A stretch of DNA of 34,054 nucleotides from Syntrophales bacterium. GTDB taxonomy: Bacteria > Desulfobacterota > Syntrophia > Syntrophales > Fen-1087. A program made the position numbers and the translations under genes. Shown here one piece after another: positions 18,907-33,860 of the stretch (positions are counted from its first letter, which is position 1; every line of letters starts with the position of its first letter). The notes beneath the pieces are model-generated. The model was not told where the DNA came from. It saw only the letters and a list, made by a program, of their open reading frames with translations, and made no database searches. Where the stretch lies: contig JAUSOK010000052.1 in NCBI GenBank assembly GCA_030656035.1, positions 1-34,054 of the forward strand. Direction: 5' to 3'.

Positions 18907-18926
18907 AGGAGGTAACGTCAATCTTG
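18907..18926 (+). promoter_or_regulatory. Ribosome site that fixes the TTG start of brxA
   Basis: AGGAGGT at 18907-18913 is nearly ideal and lies ten bases before the TTG at 18924. No ATG or GTG lies at a suitable distance in this frame, so TTG is the likely start. Confidence 0.7.
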
Positions 18927-19571
18927 AACCAAGGTAATAAATTACTTCCTGATCCTTATCGTCTCAGCTTTACATCCGTATCCCTTCGTCCCGATTTGGC
19001 TCGAATTGCTGCCGATGCTTATCTTGCCTGCGGAACGTGGGCAGGTGCGCGGCAGCAGGTGCTCGCAAATAATGCCTTCCAAAGCCGAACAAAGACATCC
19101 CTCCAGAGAATGGAGCGGGAGATCCGTACGCGTCTGGAACTCCTCACGAAGGATCAGATTGCGTTACTTGCCGGGGGTACGAGTGAAGAAAGGGCAGCGA
19201 TGGCATGGCTGGCTGCTACAAAGTACGCCGCCCTGGTCCGCGAATTTGCCGCTGATGTATTGAGAGGCAAGTTGGCGGATTTTGATTTGGTACTTCGGCC
19301 TTCGGACTATAATAATTTCATTGCCGCCAGGCTTCCCTCCCATCCGGAGTTGGGTGAACTGACCGAATCAAGTAGTAGAAAGGTTCGGAATGTTCTGTTA
19401 TTGATGCTCATGGAGGCTGGAATGATTCGAGAGGAAAACGGGGAACGACGGATCACTCGCCCCATACAGACGCAACGGGTCATTGACAGCATCGTCGCCG
19501 ATGATGCACAGTATCTCGCCGGATTCCTATGGTCCGATGAGGAAATCGCCGCCATTCGGAAAGGCAAATGA
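18924..19571 (+). CDS. brxA: BREX protein BrxA (DUF1819)
   Basis: A 215-residue protein of the DUF1819/BrxA family, a small helical, DNA-binding-type BREX component (the DNA binding is family knowledge). Segments supporting the call are YRLSFTSVSLRPDLARIAADAYL near the N terminus, a helical TKYAALVREFAADVLR, SSSRKVRNVLLLMLMEAGMI and the C-terminal ITRPIQTQRVIDSI. It starts at TTG with a strong ribosome site and overlaps brxB by the ATGA arrangement. As first gene of the operon it lies just behind a terminator-like hairpin. Its precise role in defence is not known from sequence. Confidence 0.9.
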   Translation: MNQGNKLLPDPYRLSFTSVSLRPDLARIAADAYLACGTWAGARQQVLANNAFQSRTKTSLQRMEREIRTRLELLTKDQIALLAGGTSEERAAMAWLAATKYAALVREFAADVLRGKLADFDLVLRPSDYNNFIAARLPSHPELGELTESSSRKVRNVLLLMLMEAGMIREENGERRITRPIQTQRVIDSIVADDAQYLAGFLWSDEEIAAIRKGK

Positions 19572-20182
19572 AAAATTCACAGGAACAGCTTTTTCAAATT
19601 CTCAGCCACCCGGACTTCTTGGCGATGAAGGGTTTGGCAAATGAGGTGCCCATTTTCATTCAGACCTACCATCCTGGGGATGAAGATAAGATGGAGCAGA
19701 CCGTCGCCGCCATCATAGCAAGGCTGAGAAAAGAGGGGATTTCTGTGGCCGTCGTTGATCTTTTTGATATGGTCCTCGATCTCCTCTCGTCCTCTGGCCG
19801 CTTTGATAAGGCCATCGAAAGCGAACCCGCCATGCCAAAACGCAAGATGCTGGAGATGCTGAATAACGTGGCTGATCCGAAGACCCGGCTTATCCCCCGG
19901 CTCTCCAAGATCATCGGTGTACCGGACATTAAAGTCAGCCTGATCAAGGGCGTGGGGCATGTCTATCCGTTCCTGCGAACCCACACCATTCTTGAGTCCC
20001 TGCAACCGGCCATGATGAAACATCCCATTGTCATGTTTTTCCCCGGCGAGTACACCCATGAAGAGAGTGGGGCCTCACAGTTACGCCTCTTCGGGCAGCT
20101 TATTGATCCACCTCAGAGCCATAGGTTCACGAGGGCTTACTATCGCGCATTCAATCTCGATCACTATAGGATAACCCAATGA
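19568..20182 (+). CDS. brxB: BREX protein BrxB (DUF1788)
   Basis: This 204-residue protein belongs to the DUF1788/BrxB family, always found beside brxA in type 1 BREX. The family-like C-terminal block FPGEYTHEESGASQLRLFG and the preceding KGVGHVYPFLRTHTILESLQ are visible. No catalytic motif is evident, and it is thought to act as a structural partner in the BREX complex. It is joined to brxA and brxC by four-base overlaps at both ends, which points to coupled translation and matched amounts of the three proteins. Confidence 0.9.
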   Translation: MKNSQEQLFQILSHPDFLAMKGLANEVPIFIQTYHPGDEDKMEQTVAAIIARLRKEGISVAVVDLFDMVLDLLSSSGRFDKAIESEPAMPKRKMLEMLNNVADPKTRLIPRLSKIIGVPDIKVSLIKGVGHVYPFLRTHTILESLQPAMMKHPIVMFFPGEYTHEESGASQLRLFGQLIDPPQSHRFTRAYYRAFNLDHYRITQ

Positions 20183-23100
20183 AAATCCATGAACTCTTCA
20201 GAAAACCCGTGGAACGCCCAATCGAGGGAGTCATCAAAGCGGACGATGATCGCTACCTTCAGACCGAGGTTGAGGAATATGTCATCACCGGTGAAATCCG
20301 AAGGGGGTTGGATGAATTGGCCAACCGTTACCTTAACGAGCCAAACGCCAACGGCGTGTGGATCTCCGGATTCTTCGGTTCGGGGAAGTCCCATCTCTTG
20401 AAGATCCTTTCCCTGGTCTTGGAGAACCGGGCCTTGCCAGGAGGCGAGACCGCCGCCCAGCTCATCCTGCCCAAGATAGACGATGAGATCGTACAGGGAG
20501 ATCTGCGGCTGGCGGCAGCCGTTCCCTCCCGCAGTTTGCTCTTCAATATCGATCAGAAGGCAGATGCAATCGGGGGCGACTCGACCGCGCCCATTCTGGA
20601 GGTATTCGTCAAGGTTCTCAACGAACTGCAAGGATACTATGCGAAGCAAGGACACATTGCCGAGTTTGAGTGCGACCTGGATTCTCGTGGCGAATTGGAA
20701 GATTTCAAAAAGACCTATGCCGACATCAGCAAGCATTCCTGGGAGGAAGACCTCCCCGTCATCGAAACCCTGGAAAACGAGACCTTTGCCAACGCCTACT
20801 CAAAGCATTCCGGAAAAACATACGAGGAGTGTTTGAAACTCTTCGACCGCAAGAGGGATGGCTATAAGGTTTCCATTCAATCGTTTGCCGAGCGGGTAAA
20901 GGCATATATTCAAAGGCAGGTTCCTGGGTTTCGCCTGAATTTCTTCGTAGACGAGGTTGGGCAATTCATCGGGCAGGACTCCAAACTCATGCTCAATCTC
21001 CAGACTGTGACAGAAACCCTTGCCACGGTCTGCAATGGGCGTGCCTGGGTGTTCATTACCTCCCAGGGTGATTTGCAGAAGGTCCTGATCAATTTTCGGC
21101 CAGAACTGCGTCAGGACGTCAGCAAGATCGCCGGACGCTTCAAGACCCAGCTAACCCTTACGAGTGCGGATGTGCGCGAGGTTATCCAGAAGCGCCTGCT
21201 GGCAAAGACGGAAGACGAACCGCCTGTCTTGACGGCGATCTATGACCGCGAACGCGATAACATGCAAACCCTCTTCCGCTTCGGTGACGGTTCGATGGAG
21301 TTCAAGGGGTGGCGGGGCAGCGATGAGTTTTGCGGTTTCTACCCCTTCCATCCTTATCAATTCGATCTTTTCCAGAAGGCCATAGTGCGACTCTCGGAAC
21401 ACGACGCCTTCACAGGCAAGCACACGGCTGTCGGCGAACGCTCCATGTTATCAGTTTTCCAGGATGTTGCAAAGAAGTTGATCAATCAAAATGTCGGCGC
21501 ACTCGCCCCGTTTGATCTGATGTTCGACGGTATCGCGGCCTCTATCCGTGGCGACTTCCAGACCTCCGTCCGCCAGGCGGAGAGGCAGTTGGACAATCCC
21601 GTCGCGAAACGTATCCTCAAGGCCCTGTTCCTTTTGAAATGGGTCCGAGAGTTCAAGGCAACGCCACGCAACATCGCCATACTTCTCATCGATAAGCCGG
21701 AGGTCGAAATCGCGGCCCATGAAAAAGCGGTCCGTGAGGCACTCAACCTCCTCGAAACCCAATCCTACCTCCAGCGGAACGGGGAGTTCTACGAGTTCCT
21801 GACTGACATGGAAAAAGATATTGAGGTTGAGATCAAGAACACTGAGATCGAGGAGTCCCAGCTTATGAAACTCCTCGGCGACATTATTTTTTCAGATGTG
21901 CTCCGCGATCCAAAAATCCGCTATGAAGGCAATTACCAGGACTACACCTATGCCCGGCGTCTTGACGATCAACTGGTGGGCAAGGATGCGGACGTGAGCA
22001 TCAATGTCATCACCCCCGATCATCCAAACCACGACAGCCTCAACGCCTTGATAGCCCAGAACACCGGCAAGGCCGAACTTCTTGCCGTCCTGCCCGCCGA
22101 CAATCGGCTCATCGACGAGGCCCGTCTCTATCTGAAAACTCAGAAATACATCCAGCAGAACACCGGCGCAGGGATCGAGGAAACGCGGCGATCCATTCTC
22201 ACCGAACGTGGTCAGCAAAACGGCAAACGTCGTAGCGATCTACAAGTCCGCTGTACCGAATTGCTCAGCAAGACCCCGCTGTATCTGAATGCGTCAAAGC
22301 TGGAAAACGTAGGCGAAGGAGATACCCGCAACCGCTTCGCCAAAGCCGCCCAGGAACTCATCCGCTTCGCCTATCCGAGTTTGAAGATGCTAAAAGGAGT
22401 CTTTGACGAGACGACATTGTCCAAAACTCTGCTCGACCCCAGCGATCTACTGGAAGGGATTGACCATACCCTGTCTGAGGCAGAACAGGAAATCCTGACC
22501 TATGTTGCCCGCAATCAGAATATCGGGGAGCGGGTCTCCGTGGAGGAGATCATTCGTCAGTTCGGGAAACGGCCCTACGGCTGGTATCCTATGGCTGTAC
22601 TTACTTTTGTGGCGCGTTTGTTCCGTCTCGGGAAGGTGGAGTTGCGCACAACCGACCTCCTGGATGCGCGGGCCGCCCTGGAAGCGCTGAAAAATACCCA
22701 CCAGCGCGGTGCAGTGCGTGTCCGGTTACAGGAACAGTTCAGCCCCGCTACTGTGGCAGCCTTGAAACGGTTCCATCAGGAGTTTTTCGACCAGATCAAC
22801 GATGCCACTGACGCCCGTTCAGTAGCCCAGCTTACATCCGAGATGCTGACCAAGGAAGCCCGAGAGTTGCGAGCGTTGCTTGACCAGCAAAGCCGTTACC
22901 CATTTTTGGGAAATCTCGAACCGGTAATCCGCAGCATCGAGGACTTGGGGGGCAAGTATTTCACCTATCTCCTCAACAACCTGGCCGATTTTCAGGACGA
23001 GTTGCTGACAGCCAAAGGCGATTTCCTTGATCCGATCAAGGCTTTTATGAAGGGGCCACAGCGGAAGGTTTACGACGAAGCGATGACCTTTCTTCGGGAA

Positions 23101-23691
23101 GAGGAAGCCAACTTCGCCGAAGTATCCACTGAAGATATTGCCCCTCTCCGGCTCTTGGCGACATCCGTCGCACCGTTCCGAGGCACTGTCATTCCCGATG
23201 CCAAGGCAGCCGTGACCCGTGTTCGCGCTCTGATCGACGCGAGGCTGGCTGAAGAGCGCCTGCAAAGTATGGCAGTCCTCGAAGAGCATGAGACGAAACT
23301 GAAGACAGTGCCAGAGTTTGCCGGGCTCGACAATGCACAAAAGGCCCAGGTGCTTCAAAAATCTGACGAGATCAAACAAACCTTGCAATCAGCCCGGTTT
23401 ATCAGCGCCATTCGGGATCGTCTGGCCCGTTATACATCAACGGATTATCCGGCCCAACTCACCTTACTGAACCGGTTGGTGACCCCACCTGCTCCCCCCG
23501 GCGGTTACCCTGGAAATGCGGGTGGAGAGCCTCCAAGGGTGGCTGAGCCACGTTTCATACCTGCGACCAGCCTGAAAGCCGAATGCGGCCTGCCGTATGT
23601 CACCACTGAGGCGGATCTCGATAGATGGCTGGCCGCTTTACGCAAAATTGCCCTGGCTGAGATAAAAAAGGGCACACGGATCAGTCTGTGA
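20179..23691 (+). CDS. brxC: BREX protein BrxC (PglY-like large P-loop ATPase)
   Basis: A 1170-residue ATPase of the BrxC/PglY family (DUF6079-type). Walker A is GFFGSGKSHL (64-71 for the core) and Walker B is FFVDEVGQF (Asp258, Glu259). A GRFKTQLTLTSADVREVIQKR segment follows in the AAA-like part, and the long C-terminal half is mostly helical. Near the C terminus (about 1098-1120) a Pro/Gly-rich stretch, PPAPPGGYPGNAGGEPP, looks like a flexible linker before the final about 50-residue block. Type 1 members are usually around 1200 residues, so it is full length. It overlaps brxB by four bases and ends seven bases before pglX. It probably forms the motor of the BREX complex (inference from its ATPase core). 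Confidence 0.93.
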   Translation: MKIHELFRKPVERPIEGVIKADDDRYLQTEVEEYVITGEIRRGLDELANRYLNEPNANGVWISGFFGSGKSHLLKILSLVLENRALPGGETAAQLILPKIDDEIVQGDLRLAAAVPSRSLLFNIDQKADAIGGDSTAPILEVFVKVLNELQGYYAKQGHIAEFECDLDSRGELEDFKKTYADISKHSWEEDLPVIETLENETFANAYSKHSGKTYEECLKLFDRKRDGYKVSIQSFAERVKAYIQRQVPGFRLNFFVDEVGQFIGQDSKLMLNLQTVTETLATVCNGRAWVFITSQGDLQKVLINFRPELRQDVSKIAGRFKTQLTLTSADVREVIQKRLLAKTEDEPPVLTAIYDRERDNMQTLFRFGDGSMEFKGWRGSDEFCGFYPFHPYQFDLFQKAIVRLSEHDAFTGKHTAVGERSMLSVFQDVAKKLINQNVGALAPFDLMFDGIAASIRGDFQTSVRQAERQLDNPVAKRILKALFLLKWVREFKATPRNIAILLIDKPEVEIAAHEKAVREALNLLETQSYLQRNGEFYEFLTDMEKDIEVEIKNTEIEESQLMKLLGDIIFSDVLRDPKIRYEGNYQDYTYARRLDDQLVGKDADVSINVITPDHPNHDSLNALIAQNTGKAELLAVLPADNRLIDEARLYLKTQKYIQQNTGAGIEETRRSILTERGQQNGKRRSDLQVRCTELLSKTPLYLNASKLENVGEGDTRNRFAKAAQELIRFAYPSLKMLKGVFDETTLSKTLLDPSDLLEGIDHTLSEAEQEILTYVARNQNIGERVSVEEIIRQFGKRPYGWYPMAVLTFVARLFRLGKVELRTTDLLDARAALEALKNTHQRGAVRVRLQEQFSPATVAALKRFHQEFFDQINDATDARSVAQLTSEMLTKEARELRALLDQQSRYPFLGNLEPVIRSIEDLGGKYFTYLLNNLADFQDELLTAKGDFLDPIKAFMKGPQRKVYDEAMTFLREEEANFAEVSTEDIAPLRLLATSVAPFRGTVIPDAKAAVTRVRALIDARLAEERLQSMAVLEEHETKLKTVPEFAGLDNAQKAQVLQKSDEIKQTLQSARFISAIRDRLARYTSTDYPAQLTLLNRLVTPPAPPGGYPGNAGGEPPRVAEPRFIPATSLKAECGLPYVTTEADLDRWLAALRKIALAEIKKGTRISL

Positions 23692-23698
23692 GGAAACG

Positions 23699-26600
23699 AT
23701 GAATTTGAACGCTCTCAAGAATTTCGCTCCGAACGTCCGCCGCCAGTTGATCGAAGCCGTCGGACGGAAACTCGATTTCGTCCTCACCGGTGACACGCCC
23801 GACCTGCGAGAAAAGGCGAAACAAAGGATGAGTATCAAGGGGAAGGCGGAAAAGGATCGCCCTGGCCTCATTGAGCGCGTTGCCTACACCTGGTTCAACC
23901 GTCTCGCCGCCCTGCGCTTTCTCGATGCTCGGGGATGGCATCCTTTCCTCTGCCGCGTCATTACCCCAGTTAATGAGGAAGAAACCCAACCGGAAATACT
24001 GAAACTCACCCGCAACGGTGCTCTTCCCACCGAACTTGGCCCATTTACCGATGCTGTCCGGATCAACGACCTCCTCGACGGGCGAATACCATCGGCAGAT
24101 CCCCAGGGGGAGGTGTACCGTCATCTTGTCCTGGCTGCCTGCCGCTATTACCACAATCTTATGCCGTTTCTCTTTGAGGCGCTGGACGACGAGACCGAAC
24201 TTCTCCTACCTGACGACCTTCTTACTGAGCATTCCGTTGCCCAAGGCTTCCGCAGTGCGATCACCGATGGCGACTGCGCCGAGGTGGAGATCATCGGTTG
24301 GCTCTACCAGTTTTACATCGCGGAAAAGAAAGACCAGGTCATGGCTCGTAAGAGCGCTGTGCCTACCGAGGACATCCCCGCCGTCACCCAGCTATTCACG
24401 CCGCACTGGATTGTCCGCTACCTCGTCGAGAACTCCCTTGGCCGCCTCTGGCTACTGAATCGCCCCGGTTCCCGGCTCCGCAAGCATATGCCCTACTACA
24501 TCGAGGGCGAACCCGACACCGGCTTCCTCAAAATCACCAAACCAGAGGAGATCCGTCTGCTCGACCCCGCCACCGGCTCCGGGCACATGCTCACATACTC
24601 GTTTGACCTTCTCTATCTTATCTACGAGGAGGAAGGCCACGCGCCCAGCGAGATTCCCGGCCTCATCCTACGGCATAACCTCTTTGGCCTGGAAATCTGT
24701 CCACGGGCAACCCAGCTTGCGCAGTTCTCCCTCGTCTGCAAGGCTCGTGAGAAATCCAGAGTAGCTTTCCGTAATCCCGTCCAGCCGCAAGTAATGTGCC
24801 TTGAAGATGTAGAAATTGCGTCTCAGGAGATGACCGACTTCCTTCGTCTGCCCAGCCTGTGCGAACTCTTTACGGAAAAGGTCCTGCGTCAGATCCACCA
24901 GTTCCGTGAGAATACCTCGACATTCGGGTCGCTCATTCAGCCTGTGCTGACAGCAGCGGAAATGACCACCCTCAAGTCCCGGTTAGCAATGGTAAGCCCA
25001 GGTGCTGACCTCCTTCTCAATGAAACCCACCGCAAGGTCCTCTGCGCTATCGATCAGGCAGAGATGCTCTCGCAACGCTATCACGTCGTCGTGGCCAATC
25101 CGCCGTATATGGGTAGTGGCGGAATGAACGGGCGGTTGGGGACATGGGCGAAGGACAATTACCCGGACAGCAAATCTGATCTCTTTGCGATGTTTATTGA
25201 GCGTAATCTTGATCTGGTAGTGCAGCAGGGGGCGGTTGCCATGATCACCATGCAGAGTTGGATGTTCCTTTCATCGTTTGAGAAACTTAGAGTTAATCTC
25301 CTTGGAAAAGAAACAATTCTATCTATGGCACATCTGGGGGCAAGGGCATTCGACAGCATCGGCGGAGAGGTGGTTTCGACAACCGCATTCATCTTGGAAC
25401 ATGCGAACCGGCCTGAATACAAAGGTGGATATCTACGACTCGTCGATGGTGATTCCGAAGCCGAAAAACAAGCCCTCCTAAAATCTTCGCTACCCACTGA
25501 CAACTTTCCACTGCCAACCGGTTTTTTCCGTGCATCCACAGCCGACTTTAAGAAAATACCCGGATACCCGATCGCATATTGGCTATCGCCTACAATTAGG
25601 AGAGCGTTCAATAATAAAAAAATAGGCGATTTCTTTGCCGTGAAAGAAGGGTTGGGAACGCGTGATGACAGTCGCTTTCTCAGGAATTTCTGGGAGGTAG
25701 ATCGAATAAAAATCCGGCTTACGGATGAAAATAATAAGTGGGTACCTGTTGATAAAGCCGGGGGATATAGAAAGTGGTTCGGCAACACTTTGACCGTAAT
25801 GAACTGGGAAAACAATGGGGCAGAAATAAAAAACTTTGAGAAGTCCGTCCCAAGAAACACACAATATTTTTTCAAACCAGCAGTATCTTGGGGAAAAGTT
25901 TCGACGGGCAGACCTTCATTTAGGTGGAGACCAAGTTTGTTCGCATTTGTAGATGCTGCTCCATCAGCTTTTGGGAAGGATCTTGAAAAACTTGTTGCCG
26001 CACTCAACAGCAATGCCGTCAGTACTCTTCTGAAGATACAGGGGGGGACAATCAACGTCACTGTTGGTCTTGCTAAAAGTCTCCCGATTCCCGGAGTGAC
26101 GAGTGATGGTAATGCACGTGCCTGCATAGATTTTTGCAAAAAGGATTGGGACTTCTACGAAACCTCGTGGGACTTCAACAACTTGCCGCTGCTGTATCCC
26201 GACTACCGCCAGCAAACGCTTAAAGCCACATACATCAAACTCCGCACCCACTGGCGCGAGATAACTCTGGAGATGCAGCGCCTCGAAGAAGAAAACAACC
26301 GCATCTTCATCGAAGCCTACGGCCTGCAAGAGGAACTGACCCCCGACGTCCCTCTGAACGAAATCACCATGACCTGCAACCCCCATTACCGTTACAGTGA
26401 TAAGAAGAGCGAGGAAGAGCTGGAATCCCTGCTTTTGGCCGACACCTTGAAGGAGTTCCTCTCCTATGCCGTCGGCTGTATGATGGGCCGCTACTCCCTC
26501 GACGCGCTGGGATTGATCCTCGCGAATACCGGGGACACCCTGGAGCATTACCTCGCAAAGGTCGGCAAGCCCTTCGATCAACTCACTTTCACCCCCGATG

Positions 26601-27187
26601 CCGACGGCATCCTTCCCGTCCTTGATGGTGAGTGGTTCGAGGACGACATTGTGGCTCGAACCCGCGACTTCCTTCGCCTCACGTTCGGCGAGGCCACCTT
26701 GGAAGAAAATCTCCGTTTCATCGAGGAATCCCTCGGCAAAGACCTGCGCAAATACTTTCTCAACGACTTCTCCAAAGACCACGTCCAGACCTATAAAAAA
26801 CGCCCCATCTACTGGCTGTTTCAAAGCCCGAAGAAGGGATTTTCCGCCCTCATCTATCTGCACCGCTACACCCGCGACACCGTAAACGTCTTGCTAAACA
26901 GCTATCTACGAGATTACCTGCATAAGCTACGCTCCCGCATTGAGCATCTGGAGCACGTCCAGGCCACCAGCGAAAACGCCCGAGAAAAGACGGCGGCCCG
27001 CAAGGAGAGCGACGTTCTCAAGAGGAACCTCCACGAATGTGAGGAGTACGAGCGAGAGATTATCCTCCCGCTCGCCCAACAGCGAATCGAACTGGACCTT
27101 GATGACGGCGTTAAGGTAAACTATCTCAAATTCGGCAAAGCCCTTGCCCCCATTCCTGGCCTGGCGGCCAAAGAGGAGGACGGATGA
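23699..27187 (+). CDS. pglX: BREX adenine-N6 DNA methyltransferase PglX (type 1)
   Basis: PglX marks host DNA by N6-adenine methylation of a non-palindromic site and is also needed for defence. In 1162 residues the SAM motif LLDPATGSGHML lies at about 286-297, and the catalytic NPPY is at 467-470, followed by MGSGG. The part after the catalytic motif (about 520-810) is where target recognition is expected. Its DNA is markedly AT-richer than either side: 25561-25620 has 25 G/C in 60 and 25681-25740 has 23, against 38 in 24361-24420 and 34 in 26161-26220. This suggests replacement of the specificity part by recombination. GAGGAAA precedes the start. The recognised sequence cannot be predicted from here. 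Confidence 0.95.
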   Translation: MNLNALKNFAPNVRRQLIEAVGRKLDFVLTGDTPDLREKAKQRMSIKGKAEKDRPGLIERVAYTWFNRLAALRFLDARGWHPFLCRVITPVNEEETQPEILKLTRNGALPTELGPFTDAVRINDLLDGRIPSADPQGEVYRHLVLAACRYYHNLMPFLFEALDDETELLLPDDLLTEHSVAQGFRSAITDGDCAEVEIIGWLYQFYIAEKKDQVMARKSAVPTEDIPAVTQLFTPHWIVRYLVENSLGRLWLLNRPGSRLRKHMPYYIEGEPDTGFLKITKPEEIRLLDPATGSGHMLTYSFDLLYLIYEEEGHAPSEIPGLILRHNLFGLEICPRATQLAQFSLVCKAREKSRVAFRNPVQPQVMCLEDVEIASQEMTDFLRLPSLCELFTEKVLRQIHQFRENTSTFGSLIQPVLTAAEMTTLKSRLAMVSPGADLLLNETHRKVLCAIDQAEMLSQRYHVVVANPPYMGSGGMNGRLGTWAKDNYPDSKSDLFAMFIERNLDLVVQQGAVAMITMQSWMFLSSFEKLRVNLLGKETILSMAHLGARAFDSIGGEVVSTTAFILEHANRPEYKGGYLRLVDGDSEAEKQALLKSSLPTDNFPLPTGFFRASTADFKKIPGYPIAYWLSPTIRRAFNNKKIGDFFAVKEGLGTRDDSRFLRNFWEVDRIKIRLTDENNKWVPVDKAGGYRKWFGNTLTVMNWENNGAEIKNFEKSVPRNTQYFFKPAVSWGKVSTGRPSFRWRPSLFAFVDAAPSAFGKDLEKLVAALNSNAVSTLLKIQGGTINVTVGLAKSLPIPGVTSDGNARACIDFCKKDWDFYETSWDFNNLPLLYPDYRQQTLKATYIKLRTHWREITLEMQRLEEENNRIFIEAYGLQEELTPDVPLNEITMTCNPHYRYSDKKSEEELESLLLADTLKEFLSYAVGCMMGRYSLDALGLILANTGDTLEHYLAKVGKPFDQLTFTPDADGILPVLDGEWFEDDIVARTRDFLRLTFGEATLEENLRFIEESLGKDLRKYFLNDFSKDHVQTYKKRPIYWLFQSPKKGFSALIYLHRYTRDTVNVLLNSYLRDYLHKLRSRIEHLEHVQATSENAREKTAARKESDVLKRNLHECEEYEREIILPLAQQRIELDLDDGVKVNYLKFGKALAPIPGLAAKEEDG

Positions 27188-29676
27188 AGCGCATCCACGA
27201 CAGCCTCCGGCAGGTTCTTGGCCGACATCGCCTCGTTTTCTGGTATGACGGTGAGGGAGATTGGGCCAAGGAATTTGAGACTTTTACCGCTGATGACGTT
27301 GAGAAGGTGCGCGTAGAGAATAACGAGTTCGGCGTGAAGGTGCGCATCCTGCGCCATCCAGATCGAAATACGCGGTTTCTGCTTTATTTCCCCAGCCCCC
27401 GGCCAAACGATGCGGACAACTGGCTCCTCGACCTTCTCCTTCAGGGCCATGAATACAAGGCAGACCGGGCCTCTTTGGCGTTGCAGGATACCGGCCTTTC
27501 CTATGACTTCCATCACGTCGTCGAACAGCATCTTCCCTTTTTCAACGCACAGAAACGCATCGAGGCCCTCCGGGGAATCTTGGACAAAGATGATGACGCA
27601 GACGCCGTCCGCCTGAAGATGATGGCCGTCCTGGCTGGGACCGCCCCGGATGTGGATACCCTGCTCCTGCATTTCCTTCGGGAAGCGTCTCTGGCATCGC
27701 TTTTTGACCCTCTGACCGAAGCGCTGGGTCCGGCTGAATTGGTGGGCGACTTCTGGAAGGGAGTAGCAGCGCTTTTCAGCTACACCGCTGATGAACCGAC
27801 GCTTGTGGATTTTGCTGTGAGTCTTTTCCGAGGGACCAATCCATTGGAGACTTCGGCCTCGTTAAACCCCCACGGACGGGTTTTTCTTCAGAGATGGAAG
27901 GACAGCCAGAGTCACGCTGATACTTTCCGGCATTGGTCTACTCGTCTGGAGGCGGATCTTCACGTCGAAGCCCGATTGGAGTCGCTCTCAGACATTACCA
28001 TCATCCTGGATGCGGATGAGTTTCCAGTTTTCGAGAAGAAGATCATTCATTCGCTTTGCCGTTCATTCGAGGCGGGTGCAGGCAAAGAAGCAATCCTTCC
28101 GATCATTCAGCGCCGCCGCCGTTCGTTCTGGTATCCGACCCATGAGCACGGTTATAGAGCCTTGGAGCTGGCAGTGGAATTACGGGAGCTGGTCGCGGGA
28201 GCAGAGCTGACTGTGGGCGCCTTGGATGAAGGTCTTACCCGGTACACCCAAAGCTGGTGGCGGATCGACATGGCCTACCGTCGGTTCTGGTTCCACCTGC
28301 GCCACTATGCACAGACCAATTTGATGGAGAAGACAGCCGCCTGGGTGGAGAAGACCTATGTGAACAATTTTCTTCTTCCCCTGACGGACTGCTGGAGCGA
28401 CCGAATCCGGGAGCTGTCCCGGTGGTCGTCGGAGGTCCTTCCCCCACAAACGGCGTTCTTCGATCGCTACGTGCAACCGTTCCTGGAAAAAGGTCAGAAG
28501 GTCTTTGTGGTGATCTCCGACGCCCTGCGCTACGAGGCGGCCTGTGAATTTGCTGCCACTCTGAGAAATGAGGATCGGTGGACATGCGAAGTGGAGGCTA
28601 TGCTCGGTGCGCTGCCTTCCTACACACAGCTTGGGATGGCGGCACTCCTTCCCGGCAAGACCCGTGAAATAGACGGGTCCACCGGCAACGTGATCTTGGA
28701 CAGTCGCAGCACCATCGGAACACAAAACCGCAGCGAGATCGTCAAAGCCAAGACCAACGGAAGAGGCATCGCCCTACAGGCGGAGCAGTTTCTGGAACTG
28801 AACACCAAGACCGAGGGCCGCGCCCTGATGCGCGATCACGACGTGGTTTACATCTATCACAATGCTATTGACGCCGTGGGGGATTCCGTTTCTACGGAGG
28901 CTCAGACCGTGGATGCCGTCGAGCGTGCTTTTGGCGAATTGATGAGGATTCTCAAGAAAATTGCCAACATCAACGCCACGAATATGATTTTGACTTCGGA
29001 TCACGGGTTCCTCTTCCAGCAGGAGGCCGTGGCTGAAGGCGATATGGCCACCCTGCCGCAGGCGACGGAATGGACCTACAGAAACCGGCGTTTTGCTATC
29101 GGGACGAAAGTGCAAAACGGTCCAGGAGTGAAACTCTTCCTGGCTGCCGATCTCGGCTTGACCGGGAAATGGACGGCTGCCTTTCCTCTTTCCCTGGGAC
29201 GCTTCCCATTGCAGGGATCTGGAAAACGATATGTTCATGGTGGGATAACACCCCAGGAGGTCGTTGTGCCCGTACTACGCATCCACAAGGCACGCGCCAG
29301 TGACACCAGCCGGGTTGAGGTGGATGTGCTCCGGATGCCGTCGAAAATTACGACCGGCCAGGCCAGTTTCGCACTTTATCAGGAGCAGCCGGTTGATGAC
29401 AAGATTCTTGCGCGACAACTTCGGATAGGGTTGTTCTCCAAAGATGGTGCGCCCCTCTCTGAGGTCCGTAGCGTTTCCTTTGACTCTGGCGACAGCGAGG
29501 CCCGACGGAGAGAAACGAATATAGTTCTCGCGCTCTCCCGGAACGCTGACGCTTTCAATAACCAGGAGATCGAACTGCGCATGGAAGAGACATTGCCGGG
29601 GACCAATCAGTCGGTCGTTTACAGGAGTTATACACTCAGATTACAAAAACCATTTGGGAGCGATTTTGATGAATGA
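27184..29676 (+). CDS. pglZ: BREX protein PglZ (BrxZ), alkaline-phosphatase superfamily
   Basis: PglZ is the common signature protein of all BREX types. This 830-residue form matches type 1 in length. The PglZ domain lies at about 430-680, with the metal-binding motif VFVVISDALRYEAA (Asp near 446) and the second metal site ILTSDHGFLFQ (TSDHGF at 604-609), in the arrangement of alkaline-phosphatase-like enzymes. A C-terminal beta-rich segment begins after HGGITPQEVVVPVLRIHKA. The true substrate is unsettled, and nuclease or phosphodiesterase activity has been considered for the family. The start overlaps the pglX stop by four bases with a GGAGGACG ribosome site, and its end overlaps brxL by eight bases. 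Confidence 0.95.
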   Translation: MKRIHDSLRQVLGRHRLVFWYDGEGDWAKEFETFTADDVEKVRVENNEFGVKVRILRHPDRNTRFLLYFPSPRPNDADNWLLDLLLQGHEYKADRASLALQDTGLSYDFHHVVEQHLPFFNAQKRIEALRGILDKDDDADAVRLKMMAVLAGTAPDVDTLLLHFLREASLASLFDPLTEALGPAELVGDFWKGVAALFSYTADEPTLVDFAVSLFRGTNPLETSASLNPHGRVFLQRWKDSQSHADTFRHWSTRLEADLHVEARLESLSDITIILDADEFPVFEKKIIHSLCRSFEAGAGKEAILPIIQRRRRSFWYPTHEHGYRALELAVELRELVAGAELTVGALDEGLTRYTQSWWRIDMAYRRFWFHLRHYAQTNLMEKTAAWVEKTYVNNFLLPLTDCWSDRIRELSRWSSEVLPPQTAFFDRYVQPFLEKGQKVFVVISDALRYEAACEFAATLRNEDRWTCEVEAMLGALPSYTQLGMAALLPGKTREIDGSTGNVILDSRSTIGTQNRSEIVKAKTNGRGIALQAEQFLELNTKTEGRALMRDHDVVYIYHNAIDAVGDSVSTEAQTVDAVERAFGELMRILKKIANINATNMILTSDHGFLFQQEAVAEGDMATLPQATEWTYRNRRFAIGTKVQNGPGVKLFLAADLGLTGKWTAAFPLSLGRFPLQGSGKRYVHGGITPQEVVVPVLRIHKARASDTSRVEVDVLRMPSKITTGQASFALYQEQPVDDKILARQLRIGLFSKDGAPLSEVRSVSFDSGDSEARRRETNIVLALSRNADAFNNQEIELRMEETLPGTNQSVVYRSYTLRLQKPFGSDFDE

Positions 29677-31831
29677 TGAACCTTTACCCAATTCGGACGA
29701 AACACCGGAACCTCTGGATCTGACACCGGCCAAACTTAGCACTCTTGATCGGAAGATTCTTGAGTATTTTCCAGGGCTGGTGGTTCGTAAAGACCTGACC
29801 AAGGGGCTCAAGCAGAACGCAATCGTCCCGACCTATGTTCTTGAATATCTTCTGGGCCAGCACTGCGCCACAGATGATACCGCAGCACTTGAAGCGGGAC
29901 TGGAAAGTGTCCGGAAGATACTGGCAAGGCACTACGTGTACCGGAACCAGTCAGAACTGGTGAAATCCACGATCAAAGAAAAGGGCAACCACAAAATCAT
30001 TGATAAAGTCACTGTGGAGTTGAATGATAAGGGTGGCTACTACGAGGCTAAGTTTTCTAACCTTGGGCTGACAAAGGTGCCTGTTCCTGATGATTTCGTT
30101 CGTCGCCATCCGAAACTACTCGTCGGTGGCATCTGGTGCATTACGGACTTGACCTATGAGATTACGGAAGACCGGAAGTCCAGCCCTTGGCAGATCGACG
30201 CGCTGAAACCGATCCAGGTATCGCGAATTGATTTCGAGGAGTTCGTAAAAGCCCGTAGCCATTTCACATCGGATGAATGGTTGGGCCTCCTGATGCAGAC
30301 AATCGGTTTCAACCCGGAGGTCCTGAGCCGCCGGGCAATGTTCCTTTTTCTCCTCCGCCTCATTCCCTACTGCGAACACAATTACAACCTCATCGAGTTG
30401 GGGCCGAAAGGAACGGGGAAATCTCACATCTACGCAGAGTTTTCTCCGAACGGCATCCTGATTTCAGGTTCCGAGGTCACGACGCCGAAACTCTTCGTGA
30501 ACAATTCTAACGGTCGCATAGGCCTTGTAGGATACTGGGACTGTATCTGCTTTGACGAGTTCGCAGGCAAAGATAAAAAGGTGGACAAGGGTCTCGTGGA
30601 CATAATGAAGAACTACATGGCCAACAAATCCTTTTCTCGCGGTATCGAACAGTTGAGCGCCGAGGCTTCGATGGTCTTCATGGGCAACACGAAGAAATCC
30701 GTCCCTTATATGCTCAAGCATTCCCATTTCTTTGAACCGCTTCCCGATGAATATATCGACTCTGCCTTTCTGGATCGCATCCATGCTTACAGCCCCGGTT
30801 GGGAATCCCCCGTCATCAGCAGCGAACTCTTTTCCGCTGGTTACGGGTTCATTGTGGATTACCTTGCAGAGACCCTCAAGCACCTGCGCAACGAAGATTT
30901 TACCGGGAACTATAAAGCGCACATGGAAATCGCTTCAGAATTGTCCACCCGCGACGAGACGGGCATTGAAAAAACCTTCTCGGGCCTGATGAAACTTATC
31001 TATCCCGATGGTAATTGCAACGAGGCGGAGTGTGAGGAGATGCTGCGGTTCGCGATGGAGGAGCGGCGTCGGGTTAGAGAGCACATCCTGCGCATTGACG
31101 ACACGTTCGCGCCGCATGATTTCATTTATCGCCGTATATCAGACGGAAAGCTGCTGACGGTCCTCACGCCGGAAGAGGTTCAGTACCCCGCCTTTTTTCG
31201 GAGACCATCCAAAGAGGCATCGGAAGAAGAAGCAGGCACGCGAGAGGGTGCTGAACAAACAGCGGGAACAGAAGACCACTCTGCACCTGACCCAGCAAAG
31301 CCCACTTCTTCCGGCGGCGTTTCATTGGGCGCTGGCCAGGTATCAGTTCCCCTCCAAGGTCACTTGACCATTCCCGAAAATGCCCGTGGCTGGAGTTATC
31401 GCCGTATCTTTGCCAACCACTTACAAGGGGCGCGAAGAATCATCGTCCAAGACCCTTACATAAGGCTTTTCTTTCAGGTCCGCAATCTTATGGAATTTCT
31501 GCAAATGGTCCATGAACTGGTGCCGGAAGGGGATGAGATGGAGGTTCATCTGGTAACACAGTCCGATCCCGGCACATGTGAAAAGCAAGAGGAGTTTCTC
31601 CGTCAGATTGTGGAATCCTTCACCGGCTCCCGTGTGAGTTTTTCTTGGGAACTGAGCCACAGCCCCAACTTTCATGCCCGCAGTGTAGAAACCGACACAG
31701 GCTGGAGAATCTCCCTGGATCGCGGTCTCGACATGTTCCAGAAGTTTGAAAGCGGCGCGTTCTCTCTCGAAGCAGGTGTCCAGGAAGCCCGGATGATGCG
31801 GGGGGCTGAGATCACATACCTGAAGCAATGA
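29669..31831 (+). CDS. brxL: BREX AAA+ protein BrxL with a C-terminal MIT_C (PLD-like) domain
   Basis: The first about 530 of 720 residues are a standard BrxL: N-terminal domain (LDRKILEYFPGLVVRKDL), then an AAA+ core with Walker A GPKGTGKSHIYAEF at about 245-252, SGSEVTTPKLFVNN, Walker B CICFDEFAGK and an AFLDRIH segment. A low-complexity linker (about 515-560, rich in Glu, Ala, Thr and Pro) follows. The last about 155 residues do not resemble the Lon protease domain of classic BrxL. They match MIT_C, the phospholipase D-like end of MITD1-type proteins: GWSYRRIF, IIVQDPYIRLFFQVRNLMEF, VHLVTQSD, then FHARSVETDTGWRISLDRG and LDMFQ. The ATG at 29669, with GGGAG upstream, is preferred over a TTG at 29654. 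Confidence 0.9.
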   Translation: MNDEPLPNSDETPEPLDLTPAKLSTLDRKILEYFPGLVVRKDLTKGLKQNAIVPTYVLEYLLGQHCATDDTAALEAGLESVRKILARHYVYRNQSELVKSTIKEKGNHKIIDKVTVELNDKGGYYEAKFSNLGLTKVPVPDDFVRRHPKLLVGGIWCITDLTYEITEDRKSSPWQIDALKPIQVSRIDFEEFVKARSHFTSDEWLGLLMQTIGFNPEVLSRRAMFLFLLRLIPYCEHNYNLIELGPKGTGKSHIYAEFSPNGILISGSEVTTPKLFVNNSNGRIGLVGYWDCICFDEFAGKDKKVDKGLVDIMKNYMANKSFSRGIEQLSAEASMVFMGNTKKSVPYMLKHSHFFEPLPDEYIDSAFLDRIHAYSPGWESPVISSELFSAGYGFIVDYLAETLKHLRNEDFTGNYKAHMEIASELSTRDETGIEKTFSGLMKLIYPDGNCNEAECEEMLRFAMEERRRVREHILRIDDTFAPHDFIYRRISDGKLLTVLTPEEVQYPAFFRRPSKEASEEEAGTREGAEQTAGTEDHSAPDPAKPTSSGGVSLGAGQVSVPLQGHLTIPENARGWSYRRIFANHLQGARRIIVQDPYIRLFFQVRNLMEFLQMVHELVPEGDEMEVHLVTQSDPGTCEKQEEFLRQIVESFTGSRVSFSWELSHSPNFHARSVETDTGWRISLDRGLDMFQKFESGAFSLEAGVQEARMMRGAEITYLKQ

Positions 31832-32074: not shown

Positions 32075-33181
32075 ATGGCTAATTCACTGGACAAGTTGAC
32101 AATACGTGGGTTCAAGTCCATCCGGTCCTTGGAGAATTTTGAACTCAAAGACCTGAACATCTTCATTGGCGGCAACGGCGCCGGTAAGAGCAATCTGGTT
32201 GAATTCTTTCGACTGCTGCGAAAGGTCATTGACGGCAACCTTGATGAATACATTCGCTCTGGCGGCGGAATCAGCGATTTCCTCTTCAATGGCCGGAAAG
32301 TGACGTCACAAATCGAATTCGAAGCACGTTTTGGTGTTCGCGGTTATCGCTTCAATATAAAGTCTGGTCCATCGGAAAATTGTTTGCTTACAGATGAAGC
32401 CCGTTACTACAAGCTTGGACAAACTGGTTGGTGGAATCTGGGTGACAGCCCAGACGGTAAATCGTTGCTGGTAAAAGAAGCAAAGGGTGATTCATCGGAC
32501 AGCAAATACAGCAGGCCGGTTTATGATGCGATTTCTTCGTGGCAGATCTATCACTTCCATGATACCAGCGCCACGGCAGCAATGAGGCACTATGAAATAA
32601 TCCAGGACAATAAAGTGTTGCGTTTTGATGCTTCCAACATCGCTCCTTATCTGCTGCGACTCAAAACCGAGCACCCAGATGCGTATCGGGAAGTTCTGAA
32701 TTCGGTACGGCTGGTGATGCCCTTTTTCGATGATTTTCTTCTGGATGTGACAGAATTTGGAGAAAAACAGAAAGTTAATCTTTCCTGGCGGCAAAAGGGC
32801 TCGGATTACCCCATGCAGCCTTATCATTTTTCCGATGGTTCTATCCGTTTCATTTGCCTCGCAACAGCGTTGCTTCAACCGAAGCCGCCTTCAACAATCA
32901 TTATTGATGAGCCCGAACTGGGTCTGCATCCGTCCGCAATCGCCATCTTAGCCGAACTGATCCAAAACGCTTCCAAGCGGACGCAATTGATCGGGGCCAC
33001 ACAATCCCCCGCTCTGATAGATTATTTCGGCGTTGAAGATGTAATTGTAGTCAACCGCAAAGATGGTGCTTCAACCTTTGAGAGACTGCATGAAAAGGAC
33101 TTTAACGTGTGGCTTGAAACCTATTCTGTCGGCGAACTCTGGAGCAAGAATGTCATTTCCGGAGGACCTGTCTATGAGTGA
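32075..33181 (+). CDS. SMC/ABC-type AAA ATPase (AAA_21-like), defence-module candidate
   Basis: A 368-residue ATPase of the RecF/OLD/SMC-like group. The N terminus ITIRGFKS-type strand (LTIRGFKSIRSLENF) leads to Walker A GGNGAGKS at 32-39. The ABC signature is FSDGSIRF, Walker B is TIIIDEPELGLHP (Asp278, catalytic Glu279), and the switch histidine position is Gln in ATQSPALIDYF, a variation known in this group. There is no coiled-coil arm and no Toprim domain in the protein itself. The partner gene starts inside its last codons (eight-base overlap), so the two are surely made together. In OLD, Gabija and PARIS systems such ATPases sense phage and control a nuclease-like partner. A similar role is inferred here, not shown. 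Confidence 0.85.
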   Translation: MANSLDKLTIRGFKSIRSLENFELKDLNIFIGGNGAGKSNLVEFFRLLRKVIDGNLDEYIRSGGGISDFLFNGRKVTSQIEFEARFGVRGYRFNIKSGPSENCLLTDEARYYKLGQTGWWNLGDSPDGKSLLVKEAKGDSSDSKYSRPVYDAISSWQIYHFHDTSATAAMRHYEIIQDNKVLRFDASNIAPYLLRLKTEHPDAYREVLNSVRLVMPFFDDFLLDVTEFGEKQKVNLSWRQKGSDYPMQPYHFSDGSIRFICLATALLQPKPPSTIIIDEPELGLHPSAIAILAELIQNASKRTQLIGATQSPALIDYFGVEDVIVVNRKDGASTFERLHEKDFNVWLETYSVGELWSKNVISGGPVYE

Positions 33182-33860
33182 TTATGTTGAAATCGTGGCT
33201 CTTGTGGAGGGGCCTACCGAAAAAATCTTCATAGCGGACATATTGGTGCCCTACCTGGCTGGGCATAGTGTTTTTATGACACCGATTATTATTTCCAAGC
33301 CGGGTCAGAAGGGCGGGGATGTCAGATTTGCTCGGGTGAAGAATGATATCGAGCTTCATCTGAAGCAACGGCGAGACACCTATCTAACGCTTTTTGTGGA
33401 TTACTATGGGATTAAAAGCGATTGGCCAGGGTTAGAAGAAGCGAAACGGCAATCCACTCCAAGTAAAAAAGCAGAAAAAATCAATAGTGAAACAAAAGCC
33501 CAAGTGAACAAGCTTTTTGGAACCTGTGGTTCGGACAGGCGATTTATTCCCTACGTCGCCATACACGAATTTGAAGCGTTGCTTTTCAGTGAACCACAAA
33601 AACTCGCCGAGCTGTTACATGTATCCCCGTCCAAAATTAACAAGATTCTTGCAGAATGCGGTGAACCAGAGAATATCGACGATTCACCAATGAGAGCGCC
33701 ATCCAAGAGACTGGAAGACCTTTCGGATCAATTCAAAAAGACATTGACGGGTATTGCGATTGCCAAAGCAATTGGCTTGACGAAAATTCGAGAGAGTTGT
33801 CCAATCTTCAATGGTTGGCTAACGGCTGTTACTAAGTTGAAAGGCGCATCCCATGGTTAA
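33174..33860 (+). CDS. DUF4276 protein, Toprim-like partner of the AAA ATPase
   Basis: A 228-residue DUF4276 family protein. The N terminus IVALVEGPTEKIF carries the Toprim-like glutamate (Glu12), KPGQKGGD follows, then the metal-site-like strand LFVDYYGIKSDWPG (Asp76) and HEFEALLFSEP (His131, Glu132, Glu134). These are the conserved points of the family, which is widely found beside AAA_21 ATPases. The frame is open 37 codons further upstream, but the ATG at 33174, behind GGAGGACC, gives the family N terminus and overlaps the ATPase stop. The acidic residues suggest a metal-dependent nuclease, by analogy with OLD-family Toprim domains and with AriB of PARIS, but no activity is proven. Confidence 0.85.
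   Translation: MSDYVEIVALVEGPTEKIFIADILVPYLAGHSVFMTPIIISKPGQKGGDVRFARVKNDIELHLKQRRDTYLTLFVDYYGIKSDWPGLEEAKRQSTPSKKAEKINSETKAQVNKLFGTCGSDRRFIPYVAIHEFEALLFSEPQKLAELLHVSPSKINKILAECGEPENIDDSPMRAPSKRLEDLSDQFKKTLTGIAIAKAIGLTKIRESCPIFNGWLTAVTKLKGASHG

Follow-up and report, generated by a model that had tools for sequence, protein, structure and literature searches.

What does BrxL do in BREX defence when its Lon-like end has been exchanged for something else? The job of this protein is unsettled, given that E. coli and Acinetobacter require it to resist phage and Salmonella does not (PMC11341690), and the brxL gene of a 34,054-nucleotide stretch of Syntrophales DNA (here called the window) raises the question in a particular form, as a first-pass annotation had read the end of its product as an MIT_C/PLD-like domain in place of a Lon protease. 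Here, we establish the domain, its predicted fold, its linker, its operon and its conserved site, and weigh whether the domain cuts DNA, binds phosphates without cutting, or tethers the ring to a membrane.

The BREX operon and the tail of BrxL

The window holds a complete type 1 BREX operon at 18924-31831, in the order brxA, brxB, brxC, pglX, pglZ and brxL, with all genes on the forward strand.

18924-19571, forward strand: brxA (PF08849, E 1.7e-36)
19568-20182, forward strand: brxB (PF08747, E 1.5e-30)
20179-23691, forward strand: brxC (NF033441, 1027.8 bits)
23699-27187, forward strand: pglX, BREX-1 N6-adenine methyltransferase (NF033452, 1288.7 bits)
27184-29676, forward strand: pglZ, BREX-1 type A (TIGR02687, 644 bits)
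29669-31831, forward strand: brxL, 720 amino acids, by Pfam, NCBIfam and PADLOC matches (ATG at 29669, stop at 31829-31831)
31205-31342, forward strand: linker within brxL, amino acids 513-558, of low complexity, rich in E/A/G/S/P/T and predicted disordered
31388-31825, forward strand: MIT_C (PF16565) PLD-like domain of brxL, by Pfam, AF2 and Foldseek

Immediately downstream of brxL, at 32075-33860, an AAA_21 ATPase and a DUF4276 protein correspond to PADLOC HEC-01A/B, an OLD/PARIS-like pair accompanying the BREX operon.

The brxL product runs from BrxL_N (Pfam E 1e-46) through an MCM-like AAA+ core (BrxL_ATPase, E 2.4e-122) and a disordered linker to MIT_C. Its core is the normal one that had been described: TIGR02688, the NCBIfam model of the BrxL core, scores 579 bits against a cutoff of 329, indicating that the N-terminal part and AAA+ core are present, and the same parts are common to Acinetobacter BrxL (8emc, 8emh; residues 23-476, E 9.5e-141), whose tail, in contrast, is Lon-like and inactive. 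TIGR02653, which represents full-length Lon-type BrxL, stays below its cutoff (567 against 628) with an alignment that ends at the core, at position 456 of 675, and Pfam gives no Lon family match in the protein; this BrxL is therefore not of the Lon type. MIT_C matches the tail with E 1.7e-34 and 119 bits against a 25-bit cutoff, over positions 1-142 of the 142-position profile. Because this is the sole MIT_C match in the window's own genome (a 1.98-Mb draft), and a profile search of 14 control genomes gave none, the match is not due to chance. A phmmer search of the PDB with BrxL found human MITD1 (E 4.9e-16), and PADLOC PDLC02508 matches the protein end to end in a profile search (residues 23-719, E 1.8e-298), though that model has no named C-terminal domain.

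The low-complexity linker was likewise borne out, with pLDDT below 50 over residues 513-558 of the full-length AF2 model before the tail becomes confident again, and it is among the least conserved parts of BrxL (mean column conservation 0.19 at 516-563 versus 0.6-0.75 in core and tail). The full-length model has low confidence in the AAA+ region (pLDDT below 50 at residues 240-359) and was used for the linker and tail only. A separate AF2 model of the tail, built from 53 sequences, reached a mean pLDDT of 94.8, and the first five Foldseek matches to it in the PDB were MITD1 (4a5z/2ymb; E 2.9e-15, TM 0.86), followed well behind by mouse Zucchini (E 2.8e-4, TM 0.36) and then phospholipases D, with no Lon among the 50 matches listed. 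On this model the tail is predicted to adopt the PLD-like fold of MITD1. A Lon-like domain diverged past recognition, as its position and the Lon-related family name of TIGR02653 might suggest, is so improbable beside the MIT_C match, the top structural rank of MITD1 and the lack of Lon in Pfam and in the listed Foldseek matches that we reject it. The comparison of PF16565 with Lon by profile and structure, proposed as a check in the first-pass annotation, hence placed the tail in MIT_C, and the motifs from which the domain had been recognized lie where they had been reported (GWSY..F at 31388-31411, DPYIR at 31451-31465, VHLVT at 31544-31558, HARSVETD at 31673-31696, RGLD at 31721-31732).

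What did not hold was the impression that the architecture is unusual. A PADLOC model for it exists (PDLC02508), and 'Expanding the landscape of BREX diversity' (NAR 2026, gkag035; PMC12839542) reports that Lon is replaced by a C-terminal 'HKD-endoDNase' (HRD) in 1030 of 2913 type 1 BrxL proteins; that paper credits the first report of such a domain to Li et al. 2025, and its text does not contain MIT as a whole word. The architecture of BrxL with a PLD-type tail is thus already known, and the window protein, which fits the published BrxL-HKD class by the description of that class (a PLD-type tail with HRD in place of Lon), is one more member. Our additions are the identity of the tail with the MITD1 domain, a doubt over its activity, and a third clade of carriers (clade C).

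Distribution of the tail across BrxL lineages

The survey of the architecture that had also been proposed found BrxL with MIT_C in many phyla, on both type 1 and type-4-like BrxL. A BrxL ATPase match occurs in 38 of the 395 genomes surveyed from the window's phylum; seven genomes (the window's included) have a BrxL ending in MIT_C, and two more have tail fragments. A wider scan of genomes turned up at least 568 relatives, and the best 80, which were kept, come from Verrucomicrobiota, Cyanobacteriota, Bacteroidota, Pseudomonadota, Chlorobiota, Spirochaetota, Planctomycetota, Chloroflexota, Fibrobacterota and others; the window BrxL groups mainly with sequences from Verrucomicrobiota. Plasmids carry 25 relatives with the domain, some under the record name 'MIT C-terminal domain-containing protein'. 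Phage genomes gave no match to the domain, and the matches on viral contigs are BrxL tails, except for fragments and one odd join (L031), so that they likely represent islands or prophages rather than phage genes.

The core tree of BrxL, which has long branches and a midpoint root, requires at least three changes of the MIT_C label. Clade A includes the window BrxL and belongs to type 1 with PglZ of type A; clade B (L002, L014, L015, L038, L039) is also type 1, and the PglZ of the one member tested scores under all curated cutoffs; clade C (L004, L006), for its part, is joined to short type-4-like BrxL, such as that of L164, which has BrxP and a BREX-4 PglZ. A, B and C are again separate groups in the domain tree, from which we conclude that tails have mostly stayed with their cores ever since, and the three clades could reflect either independent gains or one old gain followed by losses. 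MIT_C on three separate BrxL clades was not found in the literature searched. Type 4 BrxL is described as having no C-terminal extension (PMC12839542), whereas here a type-4-like clade carries MIT_C.

BREX-like loci in two phyla (L161, G072:C44; L162, G373:C65; L202, G942:C10) encode an N6-type methylase, an SspC/BrxC-like ATPase without an NCBIfam match, a very divergent PglZ, and a BrxL that carries MIT_C on a core nearest to type 4; L202 additionally has an SspB-like protein and a small P-loop protein. No BrxP was seen in the stretches of these loci that were read. Such loci, in which the third of the MIT_C-bearing clades is found, seem to represent an undescribed BREX-like type, and seem to be an exception to the published description of type 4 BrxL.

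A BrxL core is also present in 118 of the 127 ORFs with the domain, and the other nine are mostly fragments or odd joins, with two clear exceptions. One is a 952-aa dynamin-family GTPase ending in MIT_C on a Thiodictyon plasmid (L012:5607-8462), the only membrane-type partner seen; the other, on a Paenarthrobacter plasmid (L016:4128-5483), joins an IF2_N domain, a linker and MIT_C in one protein, with no BREX genes among its annotated neighbours. A 1070-aa protein (L200:7098-10307, G959) has a clade-C-like MIT_C in its first half, after an N-terminal part and before what by eye are Sel1-like repeats. Divergent MIT_C-like domains with an HDR motif occur in a 1963-aa protein with an MrfA Zn-binding domain (L177:6701-12589, G307) and in a protein of 313 aa encoded next to an ATPase-like gene (L201:7765-8703, G925), which may point to a broader family of HDR-type PLD domains in defence loci. 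Weak MIT_C matches in L011 and L173-L176 fell below the cutoff and were discarded, L011 resembling by eye an ABC-transporter ATPase. The plasmid of Hymenobacter sp. BRD67 (L013) carries a decaying BREX locus, with brxL split into several ORFs, the MIT_C part still an open frame, and a short PglZ ORF adjoining the broken gene. Two further BrxL tails (L157, G331; L158, G329) are nearer to true Lon and retain its Ser motif (KEGSSAG and KEGPSAG), with GGIQQK at the expected place of the catalytic Lys motif of Lon, GGxKEK.

A conserved site common to BrxL tails and human MITD1

Three stretches of the tail hold conserved polar residues.

31451-31486, forward strand: DPYIR...Q..N (D595, Y597, R599, Q603, N606), a cluster of conserved polar residues behind an early strand of the core
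31673-31696, forward strand: HxRxxxxD motif (H669, R671, D676; HARSVETD), located where PLD enzymes have their HKD motif
31721-31732, forward strand: RGLD (R685, G686, D688), conserved and, by strand order only, in place of GSxN

D595, Y597, R599, Q603, N606, H669, R671, R685, D688 and R708 are each retained in 122 or more of the 124 prokaryotic domains (H669 and R671 each in 123), a conservation that exceeds the need of a mere spacer. Key residues are lost in four BrxL tails, with His replaced by Gln in L103 and L190, Arg by Cys in L021, and R685 by Cys in L189. The PLD superfamily motif is HxKxxxxD(x6)GSxN, and the BrxL tail has HxRxxxxD instead and lacks GSxN. By strand order in the model, H669-x-R671-xxxx-D676 appears to precede a strand pair like that which follows HxKxxxxD in PLD enzymes. 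The single-unit PLD enzymes Zucchini/PLD6 (4ggk, 4ggj) have the fold and, by strand order, the position of the H-x-basic motif in common with the tail, but they carry HxK and GSxN where the tail has HxR and RGLD, and the structural match is weak (TM 0.36-0.42). At the profile level no link from the tail to classical PLD enzymes was found in the PDB, MITD1 being the sole significant match.

The relationship to MITD1 is close. Clade B tails are 50% identical to the human protein over 143 residues (E 4.4e-38), and the window tail is 29% identical. We compared the twelve charged, amide, His or Thr columns retained in at least 93% of the 124 prokaryotic domains, and ten are the same in human (D595, R599, Q603, N606, T630, H669, R671, R685, D688 and R708, numbered from Met1 of BrxL), as are Y597 and W679; the two that differ are the first His of the domain, which falls in a gap of the aligned human fragment, and Q691, which is Lys in human. 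Human MITD1 (4a5z, 2ymb) thus has the fold (TM 0.86) and nearly all conserved residues in common with the BrxL tail, and differs in what precedes them: an N-terminal MIT domain, which binds ESCRT-III in a protein that works in cytokinesis, is absent from BrxL, where Pfam gives BrxL_N and BrxL_ATPase and the AAA+ ring stands instead. The domain tree places human MITD1 as the sister of clade B (99/84), and with a single eukaryotic sequence and no outgroup no direction of transfer is readable. The identity of the BrxL tail with the MITD1 domain is not stated in the literature searched, and in the open-access literature we found no paper joining BREX or BrxL with MIT_C, or MITD1 with horizontal transfer.

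Cutting, clamping or tethering

PLD-type active sites are usually built from two units. The explanation that we prefer begins with the BrxL core, which, following published work on ring assembly and DNA binding, would load onto DNA as an ATP-dependent ring. In Acinetobacter such a ring binds DNA, and the Lon-like tails join two rings tail to tail (PMC10164562). With the Lon-like tail replaced by a PLD-like MIT_C on a flexible linker of about 45 residues, the MIT_C domains would pair near the equator of the chamber, an arrangement that suits a tail-to-tail pair, and their HRD site would act on the backbone phosphates of DNA. DNA held in the ring might then be cut once BREX has marked it as foreign, catalysis being the weakest step. 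We give this explanation as a whole slightly less than an even chance, and hold that MIT_C in BrxL is a working phosphodiesterase, as the retained residues suggest, with confidence that falls just short of even. In its favour are the PLD fold, for which Zucchini is the best match after MITD1, and the order of motif and strands. Partners of the domain are mostly DNA-facing, including a weak MIT_C-like match beside an MrfA Zn-binding (helicase-type) domain, and the same function for the BrxL tail has already been proposed in print (PMC12839542). Against cutting stand the lack of GSxN, the four tails that lost a key residue, and human MITD1, which has the same site and for which two reviews describe membrane binding only (PMC6015221, PMC9776629).

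The same paper that proposed the nuclease regards the Lys-to-Arg change as 'conservative', one that 'likely preserves its enzymatic activity' (PMC12839542). Lys-to-Arg in HKD is, however, the substitution by which human PLD1 (K898R; PMC2739277) and PLD2 (K758R; PMC12743522) are standardly made lipase-dead, and since the same change inactivates both enzymes, the published argument cannot be relied on in its present form; the literature searched makes no link between the change in BrxL tails and these mutations. The tail may instead be non-catalytic, pairing rings and clamping the DNA backbone or another phosphate ligand uncut, a reading that we hold to be possible and somewhat less probable than cutting. 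It would make MIT_C the successor of an equally inactive Lon-like tail, which is devoid of catalytic residues and makes ring-to-ring contacts (PMC10164562, PMC12839542), and it agrees with the loss of activity in PLD1 and PLD2, with the loss of His or an Arg in some members, and with the nearly whole site kept by MITD1, a protein known for binding. Yet natural HxR families may have adjusted around Arg, and near-total conservation of H, R, R and D together with DPYIR-Q-N, over many phyla and in human, exceeds the usual demand of binding.

The first-pass annotation had suggested tethering to a membrane or to nucleic acid, and it is the nucleic-acid half that fits better. To our knowledge, bacteria generally lack PI(4,5)P2. 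An MIT_C that bound the membrane in the way that MITD1 binds PI(4,5)P2 membranes would tether the BrxL ring and let it meet phage DNA at the site of entry. Two points speak for this, namely the identity of roughly 30-50% with human MITD1, which binds membranes through its PLD-like domain (PMC6015221; PI(4,5)P2 in PMC9776629), and the same domain on a bacterial dynamin-like GTPase (L012). Nearly all bacterial copies, however, sit on a DNA ring, and we consider the membrane role unlikely. Net charge was dropped as a sign of membrane versus DNA binding, as the bacterial and human domains, both of negative charge, differ little in acidity (about -5 and -4). DNA is favoured as the target because the domain sits on BrxL, an ATP-driven DNA-binding ring, in the great majority of ORFs, and a PLD-like module that faces DNA, and may be a nuclease, is more probable than a membrane tether.

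A working nuclease on about one third of BrxL proteins would recast the question of the BREX effector for those proteins, and a dead domain would overturn the published nuclease reading. The 50% identity with MITD1, together with its nearly full site, suggests that a eukaryotic cytokinesis protein is linked to bacterial defence, and allows both questions to be tested in parallel. That the tail of human MITD1 came from a bacterial BREX BrxL tail, and that the HRD-type site in both is an active, Arg-type PLD phosphodiesterase, is a long shot by our reckoning; were it true, a human cell-division protein would carry an overlooked enzyme of bacterial immune origin.
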